From Deltaproteobacteria bacterium (lineage in GTDB: Bacteria; Desulfobacterota; DSM-4660; Desulfatiglandales; HGW-15): a DNA stretch of 28,243 nucleotides. This document shows positions 6,814 to 14,661 of the stretch, piece by piece. Location: the NCBI GenBank assembly GCA_020342025.1, contig CP070840.1, positions 3,446,089-3,474,331 on the forward strand, in the 5' to 3' direction. Under the pieces are notes generated by a model. It saw only the letters and a program-made list of their open reading frames with translations, did not search any database and was not told the origin of the DNA. A program made the translations under genes and the position numbers. Numbering within the stretch: position 1 is the stretch's first letter; each line of letters begins with the position of its first letter.

Positions 6814-7530
6814 ATGAGCGAACCCACCCTGTTGGACAAGACCTTTCAAGTCATCATGAAGTGCATGGTAGAGACCGGCCAGGCTCCGCACTACACGGAG
6901 ATCGCGTCCGAGCTTGGACTTTCGGTGGAGGAGGGGCGGAAAGCCCTACACGATCTCTTCAAGGCGGGGGTCCCGGGATGGTTGTTTCCCAAGACAGACT
7001 TGATCACCTCCTTTGCCCCGTTCAACAACCTCCCTACCCAGTACCGCATCACGGTGGAAGGTGAGCAGAAGTGGTTCGGCCAGTGAGGGTTCGAGTCGCT
7101 GGCAGTCTGCTGGCTTTTTCCTGGGAAGACGGTCCAGGTGGATGCACCCTGCCTGGATTGTGGATCGCCCGTCAGGGTGAAGATACGCGATGGGGTCGTC
7201 CTGGAAGCGGATCCGGAAGGCCTGATGGGCTATGTGGCCGTGCCCTACTGGAAGTGGTTCGAGAACGGTCCCTATGCCTGAAGCACCATGAATCTCTTCC
7301 GGTCGGTAGAGCATATTCGGAACTGGGAACAATTTGATCCTGCTGCCGAAGAGGGGATCGTTCCCCTCGAGGATCTGGTCAAGCTCTTCTCAGGCCCTTA
7401 TTTTCGCAGGCGCATGGATGCGAACTGGGTCTCCCGAAGTCGGGAGTATGCCCGCGAGATGGTTAAGACCTTTAAGGAATTGGGAATGACGGGTTCTTTC
7501 TGGCGTACGCGCAAACCAGAAGGAAGCTAA
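6814..7530 (+). CDS. MerB-like (alkylmercury lyase family) putative selenoprotein with two in-frame UGA codons
   Basis: One reading frame of 238 residues runs from ATG 6814 (preceded by AAAAGGAGG) to TAA 7528-7530, broken only by TGA at 7084-7086 (residue 91) and 7279-7281 (residue 156). Residues about 5-60 look like the MerB helix-turn-helix domain. The rest follows the MerB lyase domain: U91-GFESL matches the MerB segment with catalytic Cys96 (CALDTL), CLDCGSPV (113-120) matches HCAATGAPV, and U156 followed by LFRSV matches the Cys159 segment followed by FFASV. Glu94 sits at the position of MerB Asp99. Both UGAs thus replace catalytic cysteines and each is followed by a SECIS-like hairpin. 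A gene ended at the first UGA would be just a 90-residue HTH fragment. The alignment is from memory and by eye; the natural substrate is unknown. A doubly mutated pseudogene is the alternative, judged unlikely. Confidence 0.82.
7084..7114 (+). promoter_or_regulatory. UGA 1 plus SECIS-like hairpin
   Basis: After TGA 7084-7086, bases 7098-7104 (GCUGGCA) pair with 7108-7114 (UGCUGGC): 7 pairs, two of them G-U, enclosing the loop GUC (7105-7107). The loop starts after an 18-nt spacer and has G first. As I recall the usual bacterial SECIS description, the apical loop begins about 16-37 nt after UGA and has a G among its first two bases. Both conditions are met. Confidence 0.65.
7279..7318 (+). promoter_or_regulatory. 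UGA 2 plus SECIS-like hairpin
   Basis: After TGA 7279-7281, CUCU (7294-7297) pairs with AGAG (7308-7311). A U/U mismatch and then CC/GG close the tetraloop GGUC (7301-7304). GAAU (7290-7293) can add pairs with AUUC (7315-7318) past a CAU bulge. The loop starts after a 19-nt spacer. A GGUC-containing loop and an unpaired U in the upper stem are also features of the E. coli fdhF SECIS bound by SelB, so this is the better of the two hairpins. Confidence 0.75.
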
Positions 7531-7543
7531 CAAAGGGAGCGGT

Positions 7544-8962
7544 GTGGACACGGATGATGCGAAAGGTCTGATTTCCCAACTGGATGCCCTGTTTAAAGCC
7601 TCATCAGTGGCCATCGTAGGGGCACCCCGAGGAATGAAAATGGGCAAACTCTTTCTGGTGGCCCTACTGGAGCAGGGCTTTCCAGGACAGATCTATCCGG
7701 TCAATCCAGCCGCAGAAGAGATCGATGGGCTCAAGGCTTATCCCAGCGTATCGGCCATCCCCGGACCTGTGGACCTGGCCATCGTTTTGGTTCCACACGA
7801 CCGAGCCCTCCATGTGGTCAAGGAGTGTGGGCGCAAAGGGGTGAAAGGGGCGGTGCTCTTCACCGCGGGATACAAGGAGACAGGGACAGCGGAAGGCAAG
7901 GCCCTGGAACAGGAGCTCGTGCGCGTGGCCCGGTCTTCGGGCATGCGGCTCATCGGGCCCAACGGCATGGGCCTGTACTGCCCCAAGACAGGTCTTTCTT
8001 TCTTTCCTCAGGTTTCCAAGGAACCCGGATCCGTGGGCATCATTTCCCACAGTGGATCCCTGACCAACATCCTGGGACGTTTGGCCTCCCAGAAAGGGAT
8101 CCGATTCAGCAAAGTGGTGAGTTTGGGAAATGAATGCGACCTAACGAGTGCAGACTTCCTCACTTATCTGGGAAGTGATCCGGATACTCGGGTGATCGGC
8201 GCCTATTTAGAAGGGATCAAAGACGGTCCCTTTTTCTTCACCGCTCTCAGAAAGGCCTCTCTGGAGAAGCCGGTGATTCTGTGGAAGTTGGGACTGACCC
8301 ATGAAGGGGGCCGGGCGGCGGCCTCTCACACCGGGGCCCTGGCTGGATCGAGAGGGATATGGGAGGGTGTGGTTCGACAAAGTGGCGCTGTTTCTGTGGT
8401 GGGATTTGAGGCGTGGGTGGACGCCTTGATGGGCTTCTCGTTGCTCCCTTCTGAGCTGGGAGACCGTATGGCGATCATTTCTGGGCCGGGCGGACTGGCC
8501 GTATCGGCCGCCGAGGCCTGCGGAAACAATGGACTCAGGCTGGCTCAACTTTCATCCGAGACGCGTTCCGCTATGGCCAAGTTTGTTCCTCCCACAGGCA
8601 CGAGCCTTCAAAACCCTGTAGACGTGGGGCTTACAGCATCTCTGGATATTGAAATATATGTGCAGGCAGCCAGGAGGGTTGCCTCGGATCCGGGGGTGGA
8701 TACGGTGGTCATCGCGGGCATAGGGCTGAATCCTGGGGGAAACCAAAGATATACGGACGCTATCATCCAGGCCCATAAGGATTCTCAAAAGCCCTTTCTC
8801 ATGGTGAAAATTCCTGGATTCGACCCTGAGCTTGCCAAGAAGTCCTGTGAGGCGGGCGTCCCGTTTTTCGACACGGCAGAGCGCGCCATGGGCACTTATG
8901 CAAAGGTCCGGCGTTATCAGCTCTGGCGTGAGGCGGCGGAGGCGTCAGGCGCCAGGGATTGA
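7544..8962 (+). CDS. Acyl-CoA synthetase (NDP-forming) alpha-type subunit
   Basis: A 472-residue protein with the order CoA-binding Rossmann domain (about 15-150, starting SSVAIVGAPRG, with GPNGMG at 138-143) then succinyl-CoA-ligase-like domains (SHSGSL at 168-173). The phospho-accepting histidine is probably H262 in SHTGALAG. It has no ATP-grasp domain, so it corresponds to the alpha half of ADP-forming acetate-CoA ligases and would need a beta subunit encoded elsewhere to make ATP from an acyl-CoA. The start is GTG 7544 with GGGAG upstream, 13 bp after the MerB-like gene, so the two are probably co-transcribed. Its last 46 bp overlap the convergent metallo-hydrolase gene. The acyl substrate is unknown. 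Confidence 0.88.
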   Translation: MDTDDAKGLISQLDALFKASSVAIVGAPRGMKMGKLFLVALLEQGFPGQIYPVNPAAEEIDGLKAYPSVSAIPGPVDLAIVLVPHDRALHVVKECGRKGVKGAVLFTAGYKETGTAEGKALEQELVRVARSSGMRLIGPNGMGLYCPKTGLSFFPQVSKEPGSVGIISHSGSLTNILGRLASQKGIRFSKVVSLGNECDLTSADFLTYLGSDPDTRVIGAYLEGIKDGPFFFTALRKASLEKPVILWKLGLTHEGGRAAASHTGALAGSRGIWEGVVRQSGAVSVVGFEAWVDALMGFSLLPSELGDRMAIISGPGGLAVSAAEACGNNGLRLAQLSSETRSAMAKFVPPTGTSLQNPVDVGLTASLDIEIYVQAARRVASDPGVDTVVIAGIGLNPGGNQRYTDAIIQAHKDSQKPFLMVKIPGFDPELAKKSCEAGVPFFDTAERAMGTYAKVRRYQLWREAAEASGARD

Positions 8963-12070: not shown

Positions 12071-12195
12071 GAGGCTGTCGGAAAACGTTCATCTGCTGCG
12101 TTACCCTCATCCCTCGTCATTGCGGCGTACTTCTATGTGCGCCTCATTCCTCGGGATTTCGGAAGCCTTGCATATGGACATTTTCCATCAGCCTC
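12071..12195. repeat. 125-bp palindromic intergenic repeat
   Basis: The left end (GAGGCTGTCGGAAAACGT...) and the right end (...ACATTTTCCATCAGCCTC) are imperfect inverted copies, about 21 of 26 bases matching. An inner stem pairs GGCGTAC with GTGCGCC around TTCTAT (about 12124-12143). The segments CTGCGTTACCCTCATCCC and GCGCCTCATTCCTCGGG resemble a dispersed intergenic repeat I remember from several Desulfobacterota genomes; that recollection is unchecked. Only this copy is present here. Confidence 0.55.
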
Positions 12196-12271
12196 TCAGA
12201 AGCCGGTTTTTCGACAATTTCAATGGCAAGGTGCAACCCGTGACCAAAATAGATCAGTGAAAGGAGGCAAG

Positions 12272-14167
12272 ATGGAAAAGACTATTGATTCTGCTGCCAA
12301 AGGCATTTTAGAGCTGGCAGAGAAGAAGGGTATTCCCACCATATGGGACCGCTTCTCAGCGCAATCGCCCCAATGCGGTTTTGGCGAACTTGGCATTTGC
12401 TGCCGAAATTGTATGCAGGGGCCTTGTCGCATCGATCCCTTTGGACAAGGGGCGACGCTGGGTGCATGTGGCGCATCCGCCGATACAATTGTTGCGCGGA
12501 ATCTGTGTAGGGCGATTGCGGCCGGAACCGCCGCCCACTCAGGCCACGCCAAACATCTGGCCCATACCCTGCTTAAATCAGCCGAGGGTAGAGCCAAAGA
12601 TTACCCCATCAGAGACGAGGACAAACTCATGGCCGTGGCCGGCCGCCTCGGTATTCCCACCGACGGCAAGGAGACCAATGAGATTGCCAAAGCCGTTGCT
12701 GAAGCAGCCCTGGCAGATTTTTCAGAGAAAGAGACGCCCGTAACGTGGGCAGCCACCAACGTGACCCAGGGCAGAGTGGACACATTCCTGAAACTCGGTG
12801 TGGTGCCAACCGGCATCGACTCATCCATCGCCGAGATCATGCACCGCACAAGCTACGGCGTGGACGCTGATCCGGTCAACCTGCTACTTGGTGGCGTTAA
12901 ATGCGCTCTTTCAGATTATGCGGCGTGTCACATGGGCACGGATCTTGCGGATATCCTTTTTGGGACGCCCGCACCAACCGTTACCCAGGCAAACCTGGGC
13001 GTGCTGAAGCCTGACGCGGTCAATATCGCACTGCACGGGCATAATCCGGTCCTCTCGGATGTGATCGTTCAGGTTGCCGGGGACATGGACGATGAGGCAA
13101 AGGCTGCTGGCGCCCCAGCAGGAATTAACCTTGTGGGCATTTGCTGCACGGGTAACGAAGTGCTTGTGCGCCACGGAATTCCTTCCGCAACCCACTCAGT
13201 ATCCCAGGAACTGGCACTGATCACAGGGGCCGTAGATGCCATGGTGGTCGACTATCAGTGCATCATGCCCAGCCTCGGTAGCCTCACGGATTGCGTCCAT
13301 ACGCAGTTCATAACCACCATGCCCATTGCCAAAATCCCCGGGGCTGAGCACGTGGAGTTTGAGGAGTCAAGGGCAGTTGATACGGCGAAGGAGATTATTT
13401 CGAAGGGCATAGAGGCCTTTAAAAGACGAGACCCTCAGAATCTGAACATACCGCCATACCAGGAAACGGCCATGGGGGGCTTCTCCACAGAGGCCATTTT
13501 GGGTGCCCTTTCCAAGGTGGATTCGCAAGACCCGCTGAAACCGCTGGTGGATAACATCGCAAATGGGAATATCTTGGGCGTCTGTCTCTTTGCTGGATGT
13601 AACAACGTTCGCGTGCCACAGGACGAAAACTTTGTCACCATGGCCAAGGAGCTTGCCAAGCAGAACGTCCTGATCCTCGCCACGGGATGCGGAGCTGGGG
13701 CACTGGCCCGTCATGGACTCATGACCCCTGAGGCTACCCAAAAGTATGCGGGAGATGGCCTGAAGGCGGTTTTGACTGCCGTGGGAGAGGCCGCGGGCTT
13801 GGGTAAGCCCTTGCCTCTTGTTTTGCACATGGGCTCTTGTGTGGACAATTCTCGCCCCGCAGACGTGGCCGTGGCGGTGGCCAACAAACTGGGCGTGGAT
13901 ATGGATAAGTTACCGGTGGTGGCTAGTGCGCCTGAGGCCACTTCTGAGAAAGCGATCTCCATTGGTACGTGGGCCGTGGCCGCGGGACTGCCCACTCATG
14001 TGGGCGTCATTCCGCCTGTGCTGGGTAGTCAACTGGTAACTAAGGTTCTCACCGAAGACGTGAAGGGACTGTTGGGTGGGTATTTCATTGTGGACACGGA
14101 TCCCATCTCTTCGGCTGAGAAACTGGTTGAAGTGATCAAGGAGAGGAGAAAGGAGTTGGGAATATGA
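12272..14167 (+). CDS. cooS: Carbon monoxide dehydrogenase catalytic subunit, monofunctional Ni-Fe type
   Basis: A 631-residue enzyme oxidising CO to CO2 with electrons passed to a ferredoxin. All cluster ligands are visible. D-cluster C35 and C43; B-cluster C44, C47, C52 and C66; C-cluster H257 (LHGHNP), C292 (GICCTG), C330 (DYQC), C443 (AGCNN), C473 (TGCGAG) and C523 (GSCVDN), in step with the Carboxydothermus CODH-II ligands shifted by 3-4 residues. Length is typical for CooS. The ATG at 12272 follows AAGGAGG; the longer frame would translate the palindromic repeat and is rejected. It overlaps the ferredoxin gene by 4 bp (ATGA). No cooC nickel-insertion gene or acetyl-CoA synthase gene is near, so the role is CO oxidation or redox balancing rather than a complete Wood-Ljungdahl cluster here. 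Confidence 0.97.
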   Translation: MEKTIDSAAKGILELAEKKGIPTIWDRFSAQSPQCGFGELGICCRNCMQGPCRIDPFGQGATLGACGASADTIVARNLCRAIAAGTAAHSGHAKHLAHTLLKSAEGRAKDYPIRDEDKLMAVAGRLGIPTDGKETNEIAKAVAEAALADFSEKETPVTWAATNVTQGRVDTFLKLGVVPTGIDSSIAEIMHRTSYGVDADPVNLLLGGVKCALSDYAACHMGTDLADILFGTPAPTVTQANLGVLKPDAVNIALHGHNPVLSDVIVQVAGDMDDEAKAAGAPAGINLVGICCTGNEVLVRHGIPSATHSVSQELALITGAVDAMVVDYQCIMPSLGSLTDCVHTQFITTMPIAKIPGAEHVEFEESRAVDTAKEIISKGIEAFKRRDPQNLNIPPYQETAMGGFSTEAILGALSKVDSQDPLKPLVDNIANGNILGVCLFAGCNNVRVPQDENFVTMAKELAKQNVLILATGCGAGALARHGLMTPEATQKYAGDGLKAVLTAVGEAAGLGKPLPLVLHMGSCVDNSRPADVAVAVANKLGVDMDKLPVVASAPEATSEKAISIGTWAVAAGLPTHVGVIPPVLGSQLVTKVLTEDVKGLLGGYFIVDTDPISSAEKLVEVIKERRKELGI

Positions 14168-14661
14168 AGCAGGTCTTTGCCTATTTAGATAAATGCACGG
14201 GCTGCCGCAGTTGCCAGCTCGCCTGTGCCGTTGAACATTCCAGGGGTAAAAATCTCTTTTCGGCCATCATGGAGACGCCCACTCCCCGTTATAGGCTTTA
14301 CATAGAACAGGCGGATGACAAAAAGATCCCCATTACGTGCCGTCAGTGTGAGGCGGCCCCTTGTCTGGACGCCTGTATTTCAGGGGCCCTGTATCGGGAT
14401 GATCGAGGCATGGTCTTACAAAAGGATGAGCGATGCGTAGGCTGTTGGACATGCCTCATGGTCTGCCCTTACGGTGTGGTGGGGCGGCAAAAGGAAAGCA
14501 ACATCGCCGTAAAATGCGATCGGTGTCCGGATCTGGATGTACCGGCGTGCGTCAATGCATGCCCAACCAATGCCCTGGTCTATTCAGAAGTGGAGGAGTT
14601 CGGGGCAGCTGTCAGATCGGCTGTGGCCGGCGTCATATCGAGAGCTGTCGAAGGCGCTTGA
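14164..14661 (+). CDS. CooF-like ferredoxin with four [4Fe-4S] clusters
   Basis: A 165-residue iron-sulfur protein with 16 cluster cysteines in four groups: C11, C14, C17, C21; C59, C62, C67, C71; C91, C94, C97, C101; and C118, C121, C129, C133. This is the HycB/CooF/DmsB-type pattern. It should accept electrons from the CooS D-cluster and pass them to the flavoprotein encoded next. Its ATG overlaps the cooS stop (ATGA), which implies translational coupling, and AAGGAG lies upstream within cooS. No signal sequence is visible, so it acts in the cytoplasm. Confidence 0.93.
   Translation: MKQVFAYLDKCTGCRSCQLACAVEHSRGKNLFSAIMETPTPRYRLYIEQADDKKIPITCRQCEAAPCLDACISGALYRDDRGMVLQKDERCVGCWTCLMVCPYGVVGRQKESNIAVKCDRCPDLDVPACVNACPTNALVYSEVEEFGAAVRSAVAGVISRAVEGA

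Follow-up and report, generated by a model that had tools for sequence, protein, structure and literature searches.

Both catalytic cysteine positions of MerB are UGA, predicted to encode selenocysteine, in a MerB-like protein family from Desulfobacterota

We analyzed a 28,243-nucleotide stretch of a genome from a Deltaproteobacteria bacterium (GCA_020342025.1, contig CP070840.1, positions 3,446,089 to 3,474,331 of the forward strand). We call the whole stretch the window. It contains a gene for a MerB-like protein whose frame is interrupted twice by TGA. MerB, the textbook enzyme for cleavage of carbon-mercury bonds, depends on two cysteines, Cys96 and Cys159, with help from Asp99. A first-pass annotation proposed that both of these cysteines are replaced by selenocysteine (Sec). 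On re-reading the DNA, we found the frame to be as described there: 238 codons, starting with ATG at 6814, ending with TAA at 7528-7530, and open except for the TGAs at 7084-7086 and 7279-7281. The double-UGA family to which this gene belongs is real, and, judging from its sequences, it is almost certainly a selenoprotein family with two Sec residues. The features of the gene are:

6814..7530, + strand: gene for the MerB-like protein, 238 codons (two of them in-frame TGA) followed by TAA
6802..6806, + strand: likely ribosome-binding site, GGAGG, 7 bases upstream of the ATG (identified from the sequence)
6814..7014, + strand: N-terminal winged-helix-like part, residues 1-67
7027..7386, + strand: MerB catalytic domain, residues 72-191
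7084..7086, + strand: first UGA, codon 91, predicted Sec91, in the column of MerB's first catalytic cysteine (Cys96)
7093..7095, + strand: Glu94, in the column of MerB's Asp99 (Glu in 30/30 genes; profile-based alignment)
7093..7119, + strand: SECIS-like hairpin 1, with the apical stem at 7098-7114 (from folds, kept pairs, and synonymous constraint)
7150..7161, + strand: Cys113-x-x-Cys116 (CLDC), an additional conserved thiol pair
7279..7281, + strand: second UGA, codon 156, predicted Sec156, in the column of MerB's second catalytic cysteine (Cys159)
7294..7311, + strand: SECIS-like hairpin 2, CUCUUCC-GGUC-GGUAGAG (kept pairs; codons 161-166 frozen)

With the UGAs entered as cysteine, the readthrough protein matches Pfam's MerB family (PF03243) at 72.7 bits, well above the gathering cut-off of 27. 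The match covers residues 72-191 and so spans both UGAs. The predicted structure of the window protein also has the MerB fold. The by-eye placement of the two UGAs at the catalytic cysteines and of Glu94 at Asp99 is borne out by alignments to MerB and to MerB2. We take residues 91, 94, and 156 to have the roles of MerB's Cys96, Asp99, and Cys159.

Relatives of the gene have the same two UGAs. First, when we searched one genome per species, four metagenome-assembled genomes (two Desulfobacterales, a Desulfarculus, and a Deltaproteobacteria) proved to have a relative, and all four have TGA in both columns. Second, a six-frame search of 395 Desulfobacterota genomes, with a threshold of 1e-10, gave matches in 37 of them. 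Of these, 23 contain 27 full-length genes with at least two TGAs, three (G377, G390, and G023) contain broken or partial copies, and 11 contain distant relatives only. We compared 30 intact genes: the window's gene, these 27, and two genes from metagenome-assembled genomes outside the sample. (The broken or partial L084, L085, and L089 were excluded; L086 was counted although it is 18 residues shorter upstream of the first UGA.) The 29 relatives are 43% to 76% identical to the window protein. In all 30 genes the codon in both columns is TGA and no other, which excludes the possibility that the UGAs are there by chance. Invariant residues include Gln90, Glu94, Trp100, Met159, Phe162, Arg163, and Ser164; Cys113 and Cys116 are each present in 29 of the 30.

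Two in-frame stops in a single record could also reflect a pseudogene or sequencing errors, and frame-broken copies do occur in two of the 395 genomes (G377 and G390). But the other 29 genes with both TGAs come from 25 genomes (which we call the carriers). Furthermore, coding sequence is under selection on both sides of each UGA. The proportion of nonsynonymous differences (pN) is below that of synonymous differences (pS) in 435/435 pairs upstream of, between, and downstream of the UGAs, with median pN/pS of 0.22/0.76 before, 0.27/0.70 between, and 0.33/0.71 after. We consider a pseudogene or errors to be very improbable, and for the family we reject this explanation, given the 29 further genes and pN < pS downstream.

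We then examined the recoding signals. A hairpin resembling a selenocysteine insertion sequence (SECIS) is predicted just after the UGA at both sites from synonymous constraint and kept pairs, with covariation at the second site only. We scored 169 codons and found synonymous choice to be frozen at codons 92-100 and at codons 155-166, two stretches that lie at and downstream of each UGA. Phe162 (TTC), Arg163 (CGG), and Ser164 (TCG) have a fixed codon in all 30 genes, serine at codon 95 is TCG in 26/26 cases, and Leu96 is CTG in 29 of 30. Hairpin 1 folds as GCUGGC-GGUCU-GCUGGC, wobble pairs included (the loop is AGUCU in the window), and its six apical pairs are kept in all 29 distinct rows. 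The loop GGUCU presumably resembles that of the E. coli fdhF SECIS. Hairpin 2 folds across the family as CUCUUCC-GGUC-GGAAGAG, with 98.5% of cells paired. Eight cells are altered on both sides with pairing kept, compared to 2.4 in shuffles (0/500 as high); in L073 and L074, both arms changed via amino-acid changes.

Several results weigh against these hairpins. At hairpin 1, covariation in the 29 distinct rows is not above that of shuffles, and the folding energy at the first site is no lower than in shuffles (mean z of +0.28). At the second site, the folding z is -1.2, and controls away from the site reach -0.72. Two of the five pair measures for hairpin 2 are not beyond the shuffles (51/500 as high), and these shuffles ignore kinship. 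In the window itself, residue 165 is Val (GTA at 7306-7308), which is unique among the 30 genes (29 have Glu), and this codon creates a U.U mismatch in hairpin 2 that is absent from the other 29. The Val165 codon is possibly a read error or a recent change. Finally, an Rfam search of the window gave no match.

We also scored selenocysteine machinery in four related carrier genomes. The first-pass annotation had proposed looking for these genes, and the outcome is mixed: SelA and SelB are above their cut-offs in all four and SelD in three (each time with an internal TGA), but tRNA-Sec is above the Rfam cut-off in only one. (This first look at tRNA-Sec scored 150 candidates per genome; ARAGORN calls a tRNA-SeC at the same place as the Rfam match.) Across the carriers, selC-like DNA is present in 18 of 25, although just short stretches match in G081 and G051, and the other seven have no DNA match to tRNA-Sec. 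selA is present in all 23 of the window-type (family A) genomes in the sample, but because 355 of the 395 genomes from the phylum have it anyway, this says little more than the base rate predicts. The selD genes L025-L027 (in G003, G004, and G002) each have one internal TGA, so SelD in these genomes is itself a predicted selenoprotein. G073 and G096, which have distant MerB-like matches only, have no selA match, and the relative in G073 (L057) has Cys in both columns.

SaoL is a MerB-like selenoprotein that has Sec at the second catalytic column. When we ran the SaoL model on these 395 genomes, it led to further MerB-like genes. Among these is a second double-UGA clade (L102-L115), with 14 genes of 247-286 codons in 14 genomes. 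All 14 have TGA in both catalytic columns (UxxD ... FU) and an invariant Asp in the Asp99 column, and the three genes that we scanned score 49-62 bits against Pfam MerB. A direct search found the same 14 genomes, all with two TGAs, plus two weak matches without TGA. The loop-closing pair of hairpin 2 is kept in this clade, as CGG..TCG in five genes or TGG..TCA in nine: the change between Arg and Trp is accompanied by a silent change in Ser. In a phylogenetic tree the two double-UGA clades are separate, and a single origin is not rejected.

Might TGA be a sense codon for tryptophan or another residue, without any selenium? Among the 120 database homologues listed (of 429), 52 carry Trp in both columns. 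In another 62, the first column is Cys and the protein stops just ahead of the second; four have Cys in both columns, one has Ser at the first column and then ends, and one has Trp and then Pro. (Across these 120 proteins and the window's, Cys113 is present in 121 and Cys116 in 120 of 121.) But no DNA copy that we read has TGG in either column, distant relatives read from DNA have Cys, and the neighboring gene at 7544-8962 ends in TGA. The hairpins and synonymous constraint at each UGA, along with selA and selB in the four carriers, also argue against a sense codon. Given the invariant TGA, the Cys relatives, and the hairpins, we read the Trp/Trp entries as gene calls made with TGA as Trp (code 4). 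The 62 shortened entries look like Cys/Sec forms that were cut at the second UGA. We find a tryptophan codon hardly credible.

The distant MerB-like genes that we read from DNA have either Cys and then UGA (L116, L117, L119, and L059) or Cys in both columns (L057, L058, L060, L118, L120, and L121). L119 is below the SaoL cut-off. L059, which is cut off by the end of its contig, has a nearly identical Cys/Cys counterpart, L058; the difference between them comes either from a very recent exchange of Cys and Sec or from sequencing. Judging from this pair and the SaoL-like loci, Cys and UGA interchange at the second column among close relatives, and they interchange at both columns across clades. 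In-frame UGAs conserved as UGA or Cys in homologues are a criterion for bacterial selenoproteins, and in these genes both columns hold UGA or Cys. The conserved UGA columns, the SECIS-like hairpins, and the Cys in distant relatives support the view that both MerB thiols are replaced by predicted selenols.

What might the protein do? Because of its fold, its two chalcogen columns, and its invariant acid, we propose that it cleaves a carbon-metal bond. Our preferred explanation, which we think is probably correct, is that both UGAs are decoded as Sec at the catalytic positions of a MerB-fold enzyme and that the selenol pair cleaves the bond between carbon and a metal, probably mercury. We consider mercury the likely metal, since our searches showed no characterized relative other than MerB and since selenols bind mercury strongly; other organometals are possible. 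In the proposed mechanism, SelB with Sec-tRNA would insert Sec at both sites. Sec91 and Sec156 would hold the metal of the organometal cation in the way that Cys96 and Cys159 of MerB do, and Glu94, in the role of Asp99, would protonate the leaving carbon. The selenols would then keep the metal ion until it is removed by small thiols or selenols, or possibly by the Cys113/Cys116 pair. Compared to thiols, selenols should have a lower pKa and bind soft metals more tightly, and the enzyme would thereby be able to strip methylmercury from its complexes with sulfide and thiols in sulfidic cells.

The genes around it do not point to mercury. The window gene's neighbors are ketopantoate-reductase-like and acetate--CoA-ligase-like, we found no conserved mer or other metal genes nearby, and any one Pfam family occurs in at most 2 of the 66 near neighbors scanned. 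MerA is above its cut-off in just 2 of the 25 carriers. Because of this, we infer the substrate from the fold and the residues. (Farther along the window, 12137-14661 contains a gene for the catalytic subunit of an anaerobic carbon-monoxide dehydrogenase, above the NCBIfam cut-off, and then a gene with ferredoxin-like cysteine motifs, which fits an anaerobe.) These absences, the Glu in place of Asp99, and a weak match of the N-terminal part to winged-helix DNA-binding folds could instead suit a selenol chelator, that is, a double-Sec protein for sensing, binding, or trafficking soft metals or metalloids rather than for lysis. But in comparisons with the structural model, MerB structures align across all or nearly all of residues 1-205, which takes in the N-terminal part, so the winged-helix-like N-terminus is not a sign of a regulator. 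Also, the acid is invariant in each clade (Glu94 in one and Asp in the other), which fits a proton donor better than a simple binding site. A chelator therefore seems unlikely, and we continue to favor a lyase.

More tentatively, anaerobic Desulfobacterota may have at least two clades of MerB-fold diselenol organomercury lyases. Working without mer operons, and mostly without MerA, these enzymes would strip and demethylate methylmercury in sulfidic cells, as a counterpart of methylation by HgcAB in the same organisms. HgcA is above its cut-off in 17/25 carriers and in 9/46 genomes with neither clade (p = 8.5e-5), but this excess is not significant after restricting genome size or allowing for kinship.

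A natural, conserved version of MerB with both cysteines changed to Sec would be a clean natural experiment on selenium in metal chemistry. And because a single gene carries two UGAs with a separate hairpin for each, the family is well suited to testing double recoding in bacteria. With UGA taken as a stop, a gene caller would end these genes at codon 90 or 155, and gene surveys of methylmercury demethylation would thus miss or truncate the family. If the substrate is methylmercury, the family would bear on its degradation in anoxic, sulfidic sediment without mer operons.

None of our literature searches turned up a description of Sec at both cysteine positions of MerB. Term searches of the main texts of Kivenson 2021 (PMC8318568), Peng 2016 (PMC5029168), and deep-Sep (PMC12013277) found nothing on MerB or mercury lyase. 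The same holds for Zhang and Gladyshev 2008 (PMC2398784), where the only mention is of mercuric transport proteins. A single-Sec relative is already in print, however: the table of a 2026 review lists SaoL as a MerB-like selenoprotein with the entries CU and 1 (PMC13188914), which we take to be the motif and the number of Sec, and an alkylmercury lyase MerB-like selenoprotein also appears among those listed in a 2022 review (PMC9312934). So the first-pass annotation's suggestion of novelty stands, as far as these searches go, for UGA at both catalytic columns but not for Sec in a MerB-like protein.

Compared to MerB (PF03243), the window family has UGA, the predicted selenols, instead of Cys at 96 and 159, and Glu instead of Asp99 (which counts against a MerB-like lyase), in 30/30 genes. 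The window protein has an extra CxxC at 113/116, its gene is not in the mer operon setting of MerB, and it scores far under the NCBIfam equivalog cut-offs for MerB (32.5 vs. 193 and 24 vs. 200). Among solved structures, MerB2 (PDB:5c17) is the best match by sequence (3.2e-6, or 7.2e-11 with the family profile) and has the best structural Z against our model (16.9). MerB2 has Cys at both positions and Ser in the Asp99 column, whereas the window protein has UGA at both and Glu. Like SaoL, the window protein is a MerB-like predicted selenoprotein with UGA at the second catalytic column, but it scores 38.3 against a SaoL cut-off of 140 (NF040728), and by Pfam its nearest genes appear unrelated to an SAO operon (SAO models were run on five open reading frames of the window). 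L116 and L117, the only two loci that pass this cut-off, carry Cys at the first column and Cys-UGA at the second; the window protein, unlike them, has UGA in both columns, with Ala ahead of the second.
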